NCBI GenBank assembly: GCA_903875605.1
Contig: CAIQWT010000032.1
Span: 1 to 64,000, forward strand
DNA length: 64,000 nucleotides
Direction of reading: 5' to 3'
From: an uncultured Geobacteraceae bacterium
GTDB lineage: Bacteria > Desulfobacterota > Desulfuromonadia > Geobacterales > Pseudopelobacteraceae
Shown here: one piece after another, positions 45 to 9,900 of the stretch
How positions within the stretch are numbered: position 1 is the stretch's first letter
How the letters are laid out: the number at the start of each line of letters is the position of its first letter
Notes under the pieces: model-generated
Told to the model about the DNA's origin: nothing
What the model saw: the letters and a program-made list of their open reading frames with translations, nothing else
Databases searched by the model: none
Program-made: the position numbers and the translations under genes

Positions 45-488
45 TTAGTAAACTGGGGGCGAAAATGCCTCATGATTCTTTTGGCCTAAAAAATAGTCCA
101 CTGTGACTGCAGGAGTTGGGGCATGAAACTGCATGGGATTACGAGAAAAATATTCTGGGGTGCCGTATTGGGCAATTAGTTGTGCTGATTCTTGATCATA
201 ATAGTTGTTTCCATTGCTAGGTAAGTATCCACGAGCATATTTAACAACAGTATCGAAATGTGCTTGTTCATCTACATTATTGAATAAGGGAAATGCTGCA
301 GTATAAATAAATATTCGAACAAGAGCGATGACGCAAAATACTATTATTAATTGTTTCTCGTATTTTTCTAATAACGGCTGAAAAGATACCCCATTATTTA
401 TTTTATTAAATTCTATATTATGGTTGTCGATGGTCATGTTAATGTGGCCCCATATCTGCTTTTTACAAGGTTTCGTTGTGTTGTACAC
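45..488 (-). pseudogene. N-terminal remnant of a polytopic membrane protein (glycosyltransferase-like)
   Basis: This 147-codon reading frame has a cytoplasmic N-terminus, one clear membrane helix (about residues 47-66) and then an FNNVDEQAHF segment. An acidic/His motif just after the first helix is usual in large membrane glycosyltransferase-like proteins. In that type of protein a loop such as NHEA..PPVYY leads on into many more helices, but here the frame stops directly after PPVY. The stop overlaps an ATG (TAATG) that opens a second frame running off the left edge (positions 45-1). So this is either a truncated or frameshifted gene or a short coupled gene. An alternative start is at 437. 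No good ribosome binding site is visible at either start. The function is not established. Confidence 0.35.
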
Positions 489-584
489 CCAAGAAAGCCA
501 TATAGATACAATCCGTTTAAGGATAGGTTTGGATTGTGAAAGTAATTCTACATTATCGAATGTCTAATTATGCCTGATTTACAT

Positions 585-621
585 AATAAAGAGCTTACGG
601 AAAACCCGTAAACTCTTTATT
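585..621. terminator. Bidirectional hairpin terminator
   Basis: The arms AATAAAGAG-c-TTACGG and CCGTAA-a-CTCTTTATT enclose the loop AAAAC. The stem is about 15 bp with one mismatch and is flanked by A/T runs on both sides, so it could end transcripts in either direction. It lies in the gene-poor stretch 489-786, where the only other structure I see is the hairpin at 735-764. Confidence 0.6.
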
Positions 622-734
622 TGTGGCGTGCTACAACATTAGCGAGGGGAGCGGACCAAGAGGTTTTGTTATAAGGCGCGTAAGTGCATATAAGAAGAAA
701 CAAATATACTGTTTACGTAATTGATAAGCGTAAT

Positions 735-764
735 AAGGTGAGGTCGTATATGCGACCTCACCTT
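735..764. terminator. Strong hairpin downstream of the 19-codon gene
   Basis: A perfect 12-bp inverted repeat, AAGGTGAGGTCG / CGACCTCACCTT, has a 6-nt loop. Read on the minus strand it lies 22 nt after the stop codon of the small peptide gene at 787-846 and is followed by TTATTA. On the plus strand it is followed by TTAATTT. It makes the small gene look like a discrete transcription unit or the end of the cytochrome operon. Confidence 0.6.
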
Positions 765-786
765 TTAATTTACATCTCATTTGGAA

Positions 787-846
787 TCAGCAGGGATGAA
801 CAACTGCACTACCTACGATCTTTGGTGTTACGTATCTTTTTTTCAT
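787..846 (-). CDS. 19-residue peptide, candidate precursor of a ribosomally made, modified peptide
   Basis: On the minus strand an ATG at 846 opens a 19-codon frame (MKKRYVTPKIVGSAVVHPC) ending in TGA at 787-789. A near-ideal Shine-Dalgarno sequence, AGGAGGTG (853-860), sits 6 nt before the ATG, and a 12-bp hairpin follows the stop. Such a strong signal ahead of so short a frame is unlikely by chance. The basic N-terminus and the short C-terminal end with a single terminal Cys recall tiny precursor peptides of radical-SAM or similar modification systems; the resemblance is inference. No maturase is visible in the window. If the TGA were read as selenocysteine the frame would continue for more than 40 codons, but I see no evidence for that. 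It lies 84 nt after the giant cytochrome gene and may be cotranscribed with it. Confidence 0.6.
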   Translation of the reverse strand: MKKRYVTPKIVGSAVVHPC

Positions 847-852
847 GGTCGG

Positions 853-860
853 CACCTCCT
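853..860 (-). promoter_or_regulatory. Consensus ribosome binding site of the 19-codon gene
   Basis: Read on the minus strand the sequence is AGGAGGTG, complementary to the 16S rRNA tail over eight bases, with 6 nt to the ATG at 846. It is among the strongest ribosome binding sites I found in the window and is the main reason for calling the short gene. Confidence 0.75.
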
Positions 861-930
861 TTCAGAAATAATAACTTCTTTATAACCTATTGTTAACTAA
901 CATGCACTTTAAAGGCACTCTGCTCATTTG

Positions 931-3900
931 TTACCACGCAGATTTTTTGTTCCAGCGCTGTGTCCATGGGTCATACGTGGCTCCACCAGCATTTGCAGTA
1001 TTGTGACAGCTTGTGCTGTACACAGGGGCGGTTACAGCACCGCCTTGCGCTATATTGAACCACCAACCTCCAGGGTTCTTTGCAGAGCCGGGTGAGTTCG
1101 AATAGTTGGCACCACCACCAGGGAAACGACCGGCTCCCATTGCAGAAGTAGTTAAAGTGCTCTGGATAATGTTGCCAGGTGTGGTTGTGCCGACGGCTGT
1201 GGCCGGGATGCTCCCTGATACCTTCTGTAGGATGTGACGCTGGTCTAGGCAGTTAGTAACCAGCAGTCGTGGAAGCCTGGAGACGTGTGGTGCATGGCAC
1301 TTGGCACAGGTGTAAGCATGAATGGCATTATTTATATTTGTTCCTGCAGCACCGGCAGTCGGCCCCCATCCGGCGACAGACTGATGCACTCGCTCTTTTG
1401 TCTGCCATCCCTTGGATGTGGTAGCGGCTGCAGCACCGGTAAGGGTTGTCTGGTTGTGGCATTCAAGGCAGAGACCAGCAAAGTTGCTAGGTGCCAGGAG
1501 ATTCGTGACGCTCGGCATGTTGGTACCCGTTTTTGCATTTGTAGCGGAGAGCAGTGCGGCAAAGTTTTGGCTTCTCTTGTCGCCCTTGGTTGCCGTCGCA
1601 GATGCGCCAGTCGAAACCATAGTCTGTGTGGGCATAAAAGTGTTCTGATCAATGTGGTAACCTGCAGCACTACCACCGGCAGTGACGCCTGCAAACCTGG
1701 AACCGCCCCCACGTATGACAGGTTTGTCCGCTTTATCTTCACGGTATGGAGTGGTTACCCAGGTGCCCTTGAGTAGCGGCACGCCGTGGTCTCTGTCCGT
1801 TCCTAGGGCATTGGATACGCCGTGAGGATCATGGCACGGTGTACAGAGGCCGTTAATATCACCAGTGTGTGCCGCTGAACCTACGCCTGCGACATTGCCG
1901 GGGCCGGCACTGTTGATGCTGGAGCCAAAATGGCCACCCATCGGCTTGCGATAATCTTTCATTCCGGCAACAGGTCCGCCGGCCTTGTATGCAGTACGTT
2001 TAGCGGAGTTAGCGGTGTAGTTATCAAAGTATGGTGTACTCCAATAGCCGCCAACTGATCTGCCACCGACAGAGCTGAATGTGCTCTGGATACTCCAAGG
2101 CTTGGTAAGTGTTGCACCTCTTGGGTTTGAATTGTTATGGCAATCGTTACAGAGACTGGCACCAGCATTAAAAGGAGCGGCCGTTGTAAGATTGGTACTG
2201 TAGTTCTTGTAATTTACGGTTCTTGATGCAGGGGTGTAACTTACGGCATAGCCACCCACATTAGCAGTAGTGCTCTTTAATAGGCCACCTTTGTAGCGAC
2301 CGGTTGCGCTTGAGTATGAGCTGGTAATGCCGGCTGCCGGTGTGCCATGGGAGTTGTGGCAGTCATAGCATAGAACGTTACGTGAGGTGTTGTTTCCGGA
2401 GTATGTGTAGTCTCTGTTAGTACCGGATGGTGAAGCAATGTCTTCACCGCTCACCGAATCCCAGCTCATCATCTGGTTTTTAGTGGCATTGCCATGTGCT
2501 GATAAAGCCTTGGTAATTTTGGCTTTATTGTTAGTGCCAAAGCGAGCAACGGCACCAGAGGCCGTCGAATAATTAGACAGACTCCAGGCAACAGTACGGG
2601 TACTTGAGTAGCGAGATAGAATACTTGTTGCCGCTTTTGGTATCGCCAGGCGTAATTCCGGTGAGTATTGGGAAGGCGTACCAGCGTCGTTAGCAAAAGT
2701 AGCTGTTGTCCTGTTTGTTTCATTATGACAGCCAAGACAGTGGTTATTGATCTTTTTGATTTGCGTACGGGATGTTGGTGCCGTTCCACCACTTATGTAT
2801 TCAACAGCAGTAGTATCGAGAGTATACGTAGTTGGCCGGGTGGTGCTGGCTCCCCATACGACAAGGTTTACAGGTGCTGTTCCTGATCTGGAGTGATATG
2901 TAGCGTTTACACTGCCGTCTGAATTAGCTTCCCAATGGCAGGAATAACAAACCGTCGTAGTGATAGTAGCAGTCCCCTGATAGTGGTGCGAATTGCTGTC
3001 TCCTGTGAACTGCTGAATAACATTTGTACGGGCAGCCTGAGTTTTAGAGTGACAACCGGTGCAACTGCCACCGGAAGCATCAACTGCTCCATTAATATGT
3101 AAGGAAGCATCAGTAAAGCCAGTGCCAGATGGGTTCACATGGGGGTGGCAGGAAACGCATTCTACTGCAATCTTTCCGGCATGGGTCGCAGTCATAGGTG
3201 GATAGCCATGGCATTGAGCACAGTCACCACTACCTGGTGTAGTGACACCGTCACCGACAAGACTCGATGCGCCACCTACCAGGAAGGGGGTATTCCAGGT
3301 AGGTGTCAAATTGCGAGATGATGGAGGGTTACTAACGTTACTGTCCAGGCCAGCACCGTGGCAATAGACATTTGTACAGGCACGAGTGGTGAAAGAGTAT
3401 GATGCCGAACCGCCGGCGGCGCTACTGTTGTTTGATGCCAGTGAACTAAAGACGAGTTCAGCGGGTGCTGCTGTGTCATAATGTCCCGCAGCACTTATAG
3501 AATCGGTTGCAAGTGCAATAGAAGCTGAATGGCAATCTTTACAGCTTAATGGATGCGAATATTTGTAAGTAGTAGACGAAATATGGTTGAAGTGAGCTCC
3601 CACTTTTAGGTCTGACGAACCGGTGGCGCCAGCAAGTGAATTCCAGTCAGAGCTGCGATAGCCGTGACACTTCTGACACGTTTGCAGGGATGTGGATGTC
3701 CCCCATGCCGGGCTTGAAGCACCGTGACAGTTGTTAGTACAGGTCTGGTAGCCCAGGCCGGGGTCAAAGCTGGTGCCCTTGATGTAGCCGGTACTTGAGG
3801 CCAAGTTGATTGTTTTGTCGACGTGGGTTGCAACTGTTATGCTTCCTGGTGTCGATGTGTAGCCGTCACCATGGCAGATAATGCATGTGGCTGCCTGGGC

Positions 3901-6900
3901 ATGTACGACATGGCTGCCAGTGCCGCTGTTAATCATGTCGTTGTGGCAAGAATTACATGGTAGGACGCCTGCTCCCCACACCTGGTTAGTGTATGTAGGA
4001 GCGCCAGTGCCACTTGCCCCCTGACCGGAGCTATGGCAGTAAATGTTGTTGCAGGAACCGTAAGTTGTACTTGGGGCGATGTTTCCGGTTGAACCGGCTG
4101 CTGCCTGTTTCCCGATGGTGCCATATACCGCATTTACACCAAGTTTGGGATTAGCGGTGTCAAGGTTCCAGGTTACATTACCATTTACATGATTGAAGTT
4201 TGTAATCACGCCGTGGCAGAGGTCGCAAGTCAAATTAAGAGCCGATGGTGAAGCGTGCTTTGGATGTGACGATGTTGTTGGTGCGCTCGATGCCCGAGCA
4301 AGCAAGGTCGTGGTATAGGGGGCATAGGCAGAAGAGCTGGCAATGTTTACGCCGTGGCAGTTGCCGCAGACCATTTTTGCACCACTGTCCCAAACCGGCT
4401 TGTCATTTGCGCCATAGCGTCCTCCGATTGTGGCAACTCCAGCAGCGTTAAGTCCGTGGCAGTACACGGCACATGTGTTCTGCTCTGTGCTGTTATTGGT
4501 CTGATATACCGTGGTGCCAGGACTCGAAGAGACGAAAGTTGTTAGCCCGTTACTCACTGTAGAGTATCCCCAGAAAGCGCCTGATGTTACCTTGCCGCCG
4601 AAGGCACTGAAGCCCATCTCCATGGTCATACTAGGCATAGTGCTGGTGTAGTTATTGTGACAGGTTGCACAATTTTTGCCGATTGCAGGCAGGTCTGCAT
4701 GAGCCTTATGAGCCCCCGGCTGTCCGGAAGCCAAGGCGCCGTTACTCTGAATTGCAAGCTCAGCCTGTGTATTTGGAGGTACGCCGTGACATGCATTACA
4801 ACCTTTATCAGTTTCTCCGTTAATATGAGCAGTTCCACTTATGAAGCCGCTGCCGTCAAGCTTAACATTGATGTGGCAACTGTAACACTGGTTTGGCTGC
4901 TTCAGTATTGCCACATCTAATCCACCTACAGTCGAATAATGCGAAAAGTGAGTGTACAGCTCTGTTGGTCCTGAAGGCGGATAGGAGTGGCATTTCGTGC
5001 AATCATAAATCGGGTTGCCATTAAGGAACGGAGTGTTCCATTTCGGAGTCATCGGATTACCGAGAGTTCCGCCATCTGCTACTACGGTGGCATACGCGCC
5101 CCGCCCGACGTTTGAATCCATAGCTGCGCCGTGACACCAGACATTGTTACATGTCTGATTCTGGCTGTTATAGTTTGCCTGTTTAGCGCCGCTGTATCCG
5201 TAGAGTACGGCTCGGTTAGCAATAGCGCCCGGTTGGAAGGTTACTTCGGCTGGGAGTGCAGTGTCGATATGCCCCGCATCGTAAGGACCGCTAGGCTTGA
5301 CATGGCATTCGGAACAGTCCTTAGCTTTAGAGTAGGAGGTATACAGCGTGAATGCTGAATTCTGCTGATGAATATGGGCATTATGTGCACCTACTATCGG
5401 GTCGGTGTTGTCGGCGGCAGTGCCGGGACCGGTGGTCGCGTAAAAGCCACCGGAAGAGCTCTGCGAGCCATGGCACTTATCGCAGAGAGGCAGATTTGAA
5501 GACGCACCCCAGGCAATAGTTCGCTTGCCGTGGCAATCGCTGGTTGAACAGGTGCCGAACGCCGTGCCAGGGGCAACGTTTGCGCCTGCCGAATAATCAG
5601 TGTTTGCTCCGTAACCGCTGAAATCCATATTGATAGTGCCGTTTGCATGATTAAGTGGATTAGTTGACCCTCCGCTGCCGTGACAGATACGGCAATCAAA
5701 CGGAGTAGCAAATCCCTGTGATGGCTGGGCATGCTGTTTGTGGCCGCCAGTTGCCGCTGCGCTGGTGTACATATCAACGTGGCAGGAACCGCACGTGGCT
5801 TTTGCACCCCAGACAGGTGTTTGGTATGCCGTAGGTCCACCGGTTCCGTCAGTTCCCTGAATATTCGAGTGGCAGTAAAGGTTGGAGCAGGTGCCGAATG
5901 TTGCCGAAGGCGCAACGCCTCCGGTTGTTCCGCTTACGCTGCCTTTATATGCCGCGTTGGCAGCAATAGCAGAAAGATCCCAGGCGACGTTGCCGTTGAC
6001 GTGTCGTGCTGATGAGTAACCACTGAAACTGCCGTGGCATTTATCACAGCTCATATTAATGCCGGCTACGGTAACGCCGTTATCAGTAAATTGACCACTG
6101 CTAGCATGTTTGAGATGGCTGCCAGAACTTGGTGGGGTGGCATTTGTGACATTGTGGCAGGTGCCGCATGCTGCCTGATAACTACCTACCCAGGTTGGAT
6201 TAGGGTTTGTTCCACCCCCCCCCTGCCAGCCGTGACAGTAGACGGTGCATGATGGTGCAGACTGGTTGGGGGACGAAACAATAGTTGTGCCGACGGAATT
6301 TGTGACCCAGTTGTAAAGCGTATTAAAGCTGCTGCTGACCGTAATAGTTCCATTGGTAACATTACCGGCAAAACCACGGTATGACGTGCTCCTGATTGCA
6401 AAGCCCATTTCAATTGCGGAGTTCCCCATCTGGATGCGGTTGTAGTTGTTGTGACAAACGTCACAAGTCATTTTGACAGCGTCATGCTTGGCATGGGCAC
6501 CATAATCTGTAGGATTATTTCCAAGAGCATTGATCGGAGGAGAAACCATCTCAATCCGCTGGGTTGGCGGGTTGCCATGGCAGGAAACACAATCTTCAGC
6601 ACCACCCACATATTTAAAACCGCTTTTGTGTGGATGACACACCATGCAGTCAGATCCGTTATGGTGACTGAGGCTGGTAACCTGCTTGACGGCACTGTAC
6701 TGATGAAATTTTGTGTCATGATGACAGGCTTCGCAGATGTTGGTGGAACTTGTTTTGTCAGTTCTCTGCTCGTTACCGAAAATACCAAGTGATAAGGTTG
6801 ATGACGAAGGAGTGCCGAATATGACCGGTCTTCGTCCCGTCGGAGTCAGAACGTTTTCTGTGATCAGTTTAATGTTGTTGCTCGATTCTTTCGGATTGAT

Positions 6901-9900
6901 ATGGCAATCATTACAGGTTGATCTGTTGCCCCACACGCCATGTTTTGTCCCGACACTATAGCTGCTGTGGAGCATGGGGCCAAAATCATTGACCGTAGCA
7001 GTAAGGGGAGACATTGTTGACGCAATATGATTAGTTCCGTTACCGGTAGCCATGAATGCAAGCGTCTCGCTCTCTCCCTGCTGGGCGGAGTCAAGAGATG
7101 TAACGGTTACCTTCACGTTGGCTCCGGAACCGTTAGAGTCTAGAGTTATGAAAGAAGGCGTAATCGTAGCAGGAGCAAAGTTGTCCACGTTTTGAGTGCC
7201 GTTCAGAGAGATGGTATATGTTACCGGCGGACAGTCACCGATGTCGTTGTTAATAATATTTACCCGATAATCAGCAGAGCCGCCGACTTTTGTATACTGA
7301 TTGGCAGAGTCGATAAAAGCGACAGTAGTTGCTTGATTGCATATCGATGGCAGTTTGGCGGCGGCAGAGCCAATAGAACCGCTGCTCCTGTTGCCTACGC
7401 CGTCAAGAGAACATACCCTGTAACCAAAAGTATACGAATGCCCATCAGTCAACCCGGTTGCATCAATCAGCTCTCTTTCCGCTCCCTGATAAACCGTTGT
7501 GCCGGAAGAACAGTCGGCCGGCGCAGGAGAGTTTGCAGAGCCTCGTACAACTTTATACAGTATTGCTGAATTGTTGCTGTTGGTATCAGTTACGGTGCTC
7601 CAACCCAGGTTTATTGCACCTGGTGTAGAACCGGTTGAAACAGAAAGTAAGGGGTCGAGAGGAGCTATGCCGTCAATGGTAACGGTGCCGCTGGTGCCGT
7701 CATTGTAGAACAGGGCATTGCTGGTTTGGACATGAGTAATGGCAGAAACCTGACCGGTAACATAAAAGGTACCGGCAACAGTTGTTTTAGGAGTTATTTT
7801 TACATAGTACTGGGTCGTCGTACTCGTTGCTGAAAGTCCCGATACAGTCAATCGCCAGGTATCGTTTGAAATTGGTGCAGTAGAAGTGCCATATACGGCG
7901 CCGGTTGCCCTGTTTACGATATCCACTTGCGCCACTGCGCCTGAAGTGCCTGTTGCAAGCTGAACGGTGATGGTGTTAATTGCGTCAGTTGGCCCGTTTG
8001 TATAAAGACCGAAAGCATCGAGGTTTGCAGCTGCAAAGCCGGGGCCGACAGAAACCGTAACCGGCTCAGTTGTGCCCTCGGTTACAACGGTTGAAGCAAT
8101 CACAGTCAAGCCGGCAGATGAGGTGTCGGCAATAATATCGGCAGTGGCCCCTGTAAAAGAAGTTACCAATCCGGATATTTTCTGGCCGACGACAGCAGTT
8201 CCAGCGATGTCATATACGACCAGATAGCGCGTTAGCGTAGTGCCTACGGCTTCATTAATAGTTACGACAGCTGATGTGCCGCTAAACGTTCCACTGCCGA
8301 TCAGACTGTCATCGTCGCCTAGTGTGCCGTAATCGCCTCCGGTCGGTTTGTTGTCTCGGTATATTTTTACCGCTGACACATTAGTTGCGTTAGCATTGGT
8401 GCCGGAAACGGTCAGAGTGGAAACAGACTTTGCAGACCCTGCCACCATGGTAAAAGAATTAACAGGTTTTCCGGTTAATCCCGCAGTAACAGTAGTATCC
8501 GCAATGACTTTACCGTCGCCGATACTGACTCCTGTATTGGCAGCAGCAGTTTCACTCATTACCAACTTGGCTCCGGCAGCGCTGTTAAGGCTGAGTCTTG
8601 CGGAAGCTCCAGTAACGGTGAGAGTCATGCCAAGTCTCGACCCTCTTGGTACGGCTGAAACATTGTAAGCGGCAGAGTCAAAAGTAATAGTTTTGAGTGC
8701 AAGAGTTGTGCTGGTGCCCAAGCTTAAGGACTCGGTACTGCTAGCAGGGAACGATACTTTCGTACCTGTTGGTGTAACGTAGAAAAGAGCTGCTTTCAGT
8801 GTGGAAGCTGTACCACTTGTGCCGGTTGCTCCATAAAAAATGAAAGTACCACCCTGGAGTTTGTCCATGACATTTGCATAACCGGGACCGTTAAAATAGA
8901 GGGTGATGCTGCCGGCTGTTGTCAAGGTATTGTAGTTAGTGGCTGCCGGTGCGGTACATGTATGGCTTGGGTAGTTAAGCAGTCCGTACACGGCTGTTGA
9001 GTAGGATACTGCGGTTGTTGTGCAGGATGTATTGGATGCTGTAATTCCGGTTGCAGGGAGCGGCGTAGTGAATGTTGTGCCGCTGTTAAAATCAACCTGA
9101 TACGTTTTTGAAATTGCAGTGCTGCTCGACAGAACCGACAGCATGCTGGATGCTCCTGAAAGCATCGGGTTCATATTATTCGCCCCGACGGTGAAGTATG
9201 TCTCGTCAAGAATCTGAGCGCCGATGGTGGTGCTGGAGGCAGCAGCAGGAGAGAGGTTGTACACGACAAAATAGCGCTGTGCCGTGGTTGTAATTGTCTG
9301 TGGAGTTACCAGAGTATACGCTTGTCCTGATGCCTGGCTGAATGAAACTTCATCAGAGATCTTGGTGTCGACTGATGGATTGAAGGAACCGTCATTGTTA
9401 GTGTCTTTGTATATGGTAAATGTTACGTCATCGGCGATGGCATTGGTGCCGATCTTGTCAAGTCTGCCACCACTCCAGACGGTGCTGGATGCGGCATTTG
9501 TTACCATCTGAAAGGACAACATGGCAACATTCTGCTGCCCTGGATTAACTCCGGTGATGTTGCCGCCGTTGTAATCGCTGAGATTTGCGACTGAGGTTGT
9601 ACTGGTCGGATAGTTTTCGCTGACCGTGAAATATGATGAGTTTGTGGCGCTGCTGTAGAAATAGAGACGACCGGCTGTAGTGGCATTATTTGTTGCAGAT
9701 ACAATAATCTTAACCCTATGACCATGTGGGATTGTATACGCGGTTGGTGTTGCAAAAGTCAGGTTGGTGTAGCCGGTGCTGGTAGCGGTATAGAGGGCGC
9801 CAGTGGCGCTCCAGATAGTGGTGTTAGTGCCGCTGACAGGGTCATGGTCAATTACGGTGGCAGAGGTCGTCTGTCCGGTAGCGGCACCAGCCCGCTGGGC

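Follow-up and report, generated by a model that had tools for sequence, protein, structure and literature searches.

The PQQ (PqqA/PqqD/PqqE) and mycofactocin systems both combine a very short ribosomal precursor with a PqqD-like protein and a radical-SAM/SPASM enzyme, and small radical-SAM target peptides, the geopeptides, are found in Geobacter. GeoRSP is a named, uncharacterised cassette for which NCBIfam has three models, TIGR04302, TIGR04303 and TIGR04304, describing a PqqD-family peptide chaperone, a radical-SAM/SPASM protein and a SPASM protein, respectively. Its peptide chaperone implies a peptide substrate; the cassette has so far been catalogued by its enzymes, NCBIfam holds no peptide model for it, and the open-licence papers searched included none that deals with GeoRSP or TIGR04302-04304 in this sense. 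In lasso peptide systems, discrete RREs bind a [Y/W]xxPx[L/V/I/F/A] motif (PMC13381572), and for several RRE groups, PqqD among them, recognition through W/Y/LxxP/L/I motifs has been reported (PMC12710340).

The subject here is a 19-codon gene at one end of the window, which is the whole stretch of 64,000 nucleotides analysed from an uncultured Geobacteraceae bacterium. The gene very probably encodes the precursor peptide of GeoRSP, which would thereby be a RiPP-type modification system. It is apparently uncatalogued, with no NCBIfam or Pfam model covering the peptide family and no description in the open-licence papers searched; a 2010 comparison of six Geobacter genomes does not mention a "small peptide" (PMC2825233), nor does a 2026 selenoproteome review mention Geobacter (PMC13188914). 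What is likely new is the identity of this probable precursor of GeoRSP and, in two phyla, its link with giant cytochromes. The case also illustrates that a key part of a widespread pathway may be encoded by a gene which ordinary gene finders miss for its shortness.

Like PQQ and mycofactocin, the peptide and GeoRSP together present a very short precursor, a PqqD-like protein and a radical-SAM/SPASM enzyme. However, the GeoRSP radical-SAM protein does not qualify as a linked PqqE or MftC, as it scores 109.7 bits against the PqqE model (cut-off 381) and 162 bits against the mycofactocin MftC model (cut-off 265). Further differences are the C-terminal VHPC residues, the multiple dispersed gene copies, the extra SPASM partner and the lack of evidence for release of a small-molecule cofactor from the GeoRSP peptide. 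With lasso peptides and related YxxP leaders the peptide shares the YxxPx[L/V/I/F/A] recognition motif (PMC13381572, PMC12710340), whereas it is only 17-21 residues long and linked to radical-SAM rather than lasso enzymes; none of the GeoRSP-locus proteins scanned matched the asparagine-synthetase-like cyclase or the B2 protease of lasso systems. Kinship with the geopeptides, which had been offered as an example when the gene was first noticed, found no support, since none of 18,950 NCBIfam models matched any of thirteen 20-residue family members up to E 10, a scan in which very short queries match poorly and which covered those members and not the 19-residue peptide of the window.

The peptide gene and its family

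The first-pass annotation had listed a ribosome binding site, an ATG, 19 codons with an HPC-TGA end and a hairpin 22 nt further on, leaving the strand unstated; all of these are present, on the minus strand (Table 1). The peptide gene lies 84 nt downstream of a giant multihaem cytochrome gene on the same strand. The hairpin behind it is a probable terminator only, as the T-run that follows is weak on the gene's own strand. On the plus strand, the RNA fold of the peptide region was no better than that of shuffled sequences, and no tRNA genes were found in the window or in the neighbourhoods L007 and L008. The ORF 3' of the peptide gene has no NCBIfam match, stops early near the contig start and resembles a fragment or a frameshifted gene; the proposal made here does not require it.

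Table 1. Features around the peptide gene, in window coordinates
Feature	Position	Strand	Remarks
Membrane-protein-like ORF, 147 aa	45..488	minus	3' of peptide gene; possibly a fragment
12-bp hairpin, probable terminator	735..764	minus	22 nt 3' of peptide stop; exact 12-bp inverted repeat AAGGTGAGGTCG-CATATA-CGACCTCACCTT at 764-735
Precursor peptide gene (probable), MKKRYVTPKIVGSAVVHPC	787..846	minus	19 codons + TGA; ATG at 846-844, TGA at 789-787, by direct reading of the sequence
Shine-Dalgarno, AGGAGGTG	853..860	minus	860-853 on the gene's strand; 6 nt 5' of ATG
Giant multihaem cytochrome, 3113 aa	931..10272	minus	31 CxxCH; TIGR01904 domains

The 19-codon ORF is a real gene. On its 109 contigs, the genome encodes the identical protein three times, in the window, at C63:16008-16064 and at C64:5977-6033, and it is these two further copies that place the ORF far beyond chance; together with the family-wide homologues, their 100% protein identity rules out a chance ORF. 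When the window copy is compared with its two counterparts, identity is 22/22 in the ribosome-binding-site region, the Shine-Dalgarno being the same in 3/3 copies, and 59/60 in the ORF (one synonymous change), and it falls to 23/42 in the upstream flank and 14/45 beyond the hairpin. Equivalent hairpins, diverged in sequence, stand behind the other copies, whose upstream neighbours are unreadable because on either contig no more than 64 nt precede the ATG.

The search for homologues in related genomes that the first-pass annotation had suggested revealed a conserved family: the single peptide had matches in 41/141 genomes of the order Geobacterales (E up to 1), and the family is found in 95/277 genomes and 39/82 genera of the class Desulfuromonadia, as well as in a second phylum, Nitrospirota. 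A profile built from 30 Geobacterales peptides (A1) separated matches sharply within the order, with 38 genomes at E <=7.4e-8 and the next match at 0.004. Absence of both homologues and a translation signal at 787-846, which had been named as grounds for giving up the idea, is thus not what was observed, as homologues and a strong Shine-Dalgarno are both there.

Among 154 distinct copies, encoding 17-21 residues, the amino acids are conserved while all synonymous codons are in use at conserved positions, and a strong Shine-Dalgarno precedes 150 of them. Folding of the 65 nt 3' of the stop is much stronger than in mononucleotide-shuffled controls (mean z -4.1; below -2 for 78% of the copies). 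A His and a Cys are conserved in the family peptides; the pattern used to collect the 154 copies demanded YxxP and a [HY]PC-like end, so that these columns are conserved partly by construction, a limit of which the profile matches are free. Reading of the stop as selenocysteine is unlikely given the stop codons of the family (TGA 98, TAA 45, TAG 11).

Giant cytochromes and other neighbours

Within the order, at least 200 nt of upstream sequence are available for 59 copies. If a direct 5' neighbour is taken to be a gene on the same strand no more than 260 nt away, this neighbour is a multihaem cytochrome for 29 of them, another ORF of at least 900 aa for 8 and a carboxypeptidase-regulatory-like gene for 5. 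Multihaem cytochromes of that family make up 60/744 ORFs in the peptide neighbourhoods, which are themselves already enriched. The same position, 3' of cytochromes with 11-42 haem motifs, recurs in other orders of the class and in Nitrospirota. Judged from gene order, this fits the earlier suggestion of a small redox-active peptide made together with the cytochromes. That the peptide gene repeatedly follows a giant multihaem cytochrome, and does so in two phyla, suggests that extracellular electron transfer has a previously unrecognised peptide component. No C-terminal motif is common to all giant proteins upstream of the peptide.

In several neighbourhoods (L066, L067, L060, L086, L298, L299 and L301), giant proteins of about 2000-3300 aa that have no haem motifs hold the place of the cytochromes upstream of the peptide. 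Other copies (L062, L090, L081 and L071) lie near cobalt/nickel ECF transporter-like genes (CbiM/CbiQ/CbiO-like, the sequence being judged by eye).

Association with the GeoRSP cassette

In the window's genome, the TIGR04302, TIGR04303 and TIGR04304 genes are adjacent on contig C43, all over their cut-offs, and stand apart from every peptide copy of the genome; the cassette is not at the window's left edge as far as this is visible, the contig beginning at window base 1. TIGR04303 is over its cut-off in 35/141 genomes of the order and has matches at E up to 1e-80 in 84/277 genomes of the class. Both peptide and GeoRSP were found in 82 class genomes, the peptide only in 13, GeoRSP only in 2 and neither in 180 (277 genomes; lists tallied by hand; Fisher p ~2e-53, relatedness ignored). 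The corresponding counts are 49, 8, 0 and 79 outside the order from which the profile was built (p ~6e-29, relatedness likewise ignored), 27, 1, 2 and 73 for genomes of the order that are >=90% complete and <=5% contaminated, and 14, 3, 0 and 229 in Nitrospirota (246 genomes). The peptide is present in 23/25 GeoRSP-positive Nitrospirota genomes. Because the p-values ignore relatedness, the better argument is that the co-occurrence is patchy and repeated: it is seen inside a single genus, over many families and again in another phylum.

The TIGR04303 radical-SAM protein is encoded in the window's genome and in 82/95 peptide-positive genomes of the class. Geomobilimonas luticola JCM 17780 and Pelotalea chapellei DSM 13688 are among the cultured carriers. 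Thirteen class and three Nitrospirota genomes carry the peptide without a detected GeoRSP radical-SAM gene; most are incomplete, but G007 and G210 are 97% and 96% complete. Conversely, G046 and G018, both complete or nearly so, have GeoRSP, and neither the profile nor a loose DNA pattern detected a peptide there. The giant cytochromes, common to both, could drive part of the co-occurrence.

In Desulfuromonadales, the peptide gene (e.g., MKKYMKPRIVGSSNVHPC) lies inside the GeoRSP operon, between the radical-SAM and SPASM genes; for most of the named records, its distance from the preceding radical-SAM gene is about 28-207 nt. In L286, the order is a PhnD-like gene, an unclassified 181-aa gene, a YedE putative selenium transporter, PqqD, the radical-SAM gene, the peptide (9421-9477), SPASM and a cysteine desulfurase family gene, with 95.4 bits for PqqD (just under the cut-off of 100), 455.9 for the radical-SAM protein (over its cut-off) and 82.1 for SPASM (below the cut-off of 300). 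Operon membership is thus a property of these Desulfuromonadales relatives, whereas the window's own genome has its copies elsewhere. The Geobacterales GeoRSP locus comprises beta-helix, carboxypeptidase-regulatory-like, OpuAC-like, ResB-like and permease genes, followed by PqqD, radical-SAM and SPASM genes; in several Geobacterales genomes the peptide gene lies about 6-9 kb upstream of the GeoRSP radical-SAM gene. Peptide and cassette share genomes and, in Desulfuromonadales, an operon, in contrast to most Geobacterales copies, which lie away from the cassette and beside giant cytochromes. The original idea of a radical-SAM target peptide is strongly supported by this co-occurrence and operon membership, which identify GeoRSP as the partner.

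In Geobacterales (L126 3130-5894, minus) as well as Desulfuromonadales (L286 5384-11660, plus), genes for a YedE putative selenium transporter and a PhnD-like binding protein accompany GeoRSP, joined in Desulfuromonadales by a cysteine desulfurase family gene. The linked transporter and desulfurase hint at sulfur or selenium chemistry, as a lead only.

Recognition motif, proposed maturation and alternatives

All 154 copies carry YxxPx[V/I/L] in the N-terminal half, the collecting pattern having demanded YxxP and left the hydrophobic residue free, and this agrees with the published RRE-binding motif (PMC13381572, PMC12710340). By analogy, the N-terminal stretch of the peptide would serve recognition, and its short C-terminal part, VGSAxVHPC, would be the target of modification. 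The GeoRSP radical-SAM protein has a CxxxCxxC motif and a cysteine-rich SPASM region.

In the proposed pathway, the peptide would be translated from its own strong ribosome binding site, its gene in most cases standing immediately behind that of a giant multihaem cytochrome or of the GeoRSP radical-SAM protein. The PqqD-like recognition protein (TIGR04302) would then bind the YxxPx[VI] stretch, and the radical-SAM/SPASM enzyme (TIGR04303) with its SPASM partner (TIGR04304) would modify VGSAxVHPC, probably via the terminal Cys or His. To these three steps belongs the high probability given above for a GeoRSP precursor. A fourth step, to which we give an even chance, is that the product works together with the giant multihaem cytochromes, within the envelope or beyond it, and could be a redox- or metal-binding peptide or a peptide-derived cofactor, to give two examples. 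More speculatively, the C-terminal VHPC might be what GeoRSP turns into a peptide-derived redox or metal-binding cofactor dedicated to the giant extracellular multihaem cytochromes of Desulfuromonadia and Nitrospirota. PQQ and mycofactocin would then be joined by a third cofactor system of the PqqD/radical-SAM kind with a short precursor; this we consider possible and rather doubtful. With a defined substrate of 18-20 residues, co-expression and mass spectrometry become a direct test of the GeoRSP system.

The repeated place 3' of giant cytochromes and the conserved His and Cys would also suit an unmodified small accessory peptide that is translated with the cytochromes and binds them or haem via these residues, while GeoRSP acts on something else. 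We regard this as improbable, as the gene sits inside the GeoRSP operon between the radical-SAM and SPASM genes, all copies carry the RRE-type YxxPx[VI] motif and the cassette has a PqqD-family chaperone. A regulatory leader peptide, in which short ORF, strong ribosome binding site and following hairpin form an attenuator of downstream genes, is very improbable, since amino acids are conserved with variable codons, the genes that follow are unrelated and in many cases run in the opposite direction, and the co-occurrence with GeoRSP would go unexplained.

Behind the C63 peptide copy, L008 (C63:8000-16128) holds at 112-7875 (minus), on one strand, a 701-aa membrane protein gene, three different radical-SAM/SPASM genes, a B12-binding radical-SAM gene and an epimerase-like gene, all below the NCBIfam equivalog cut-offs. 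That these physically linked radical-SAM genes, and not GeoRSP, encode the maturases has equally little probability and was dropped as the main reading: the enzymes fall below every NCBIfam cut-off and are not conserved beside the peptide, a comparable start being seen only in L073 (same membrane protein family, one radical-SAM gene) among the neighbourhoods compared, whereas the distribution of GeoRSP follows that of the peptide in two phyla.
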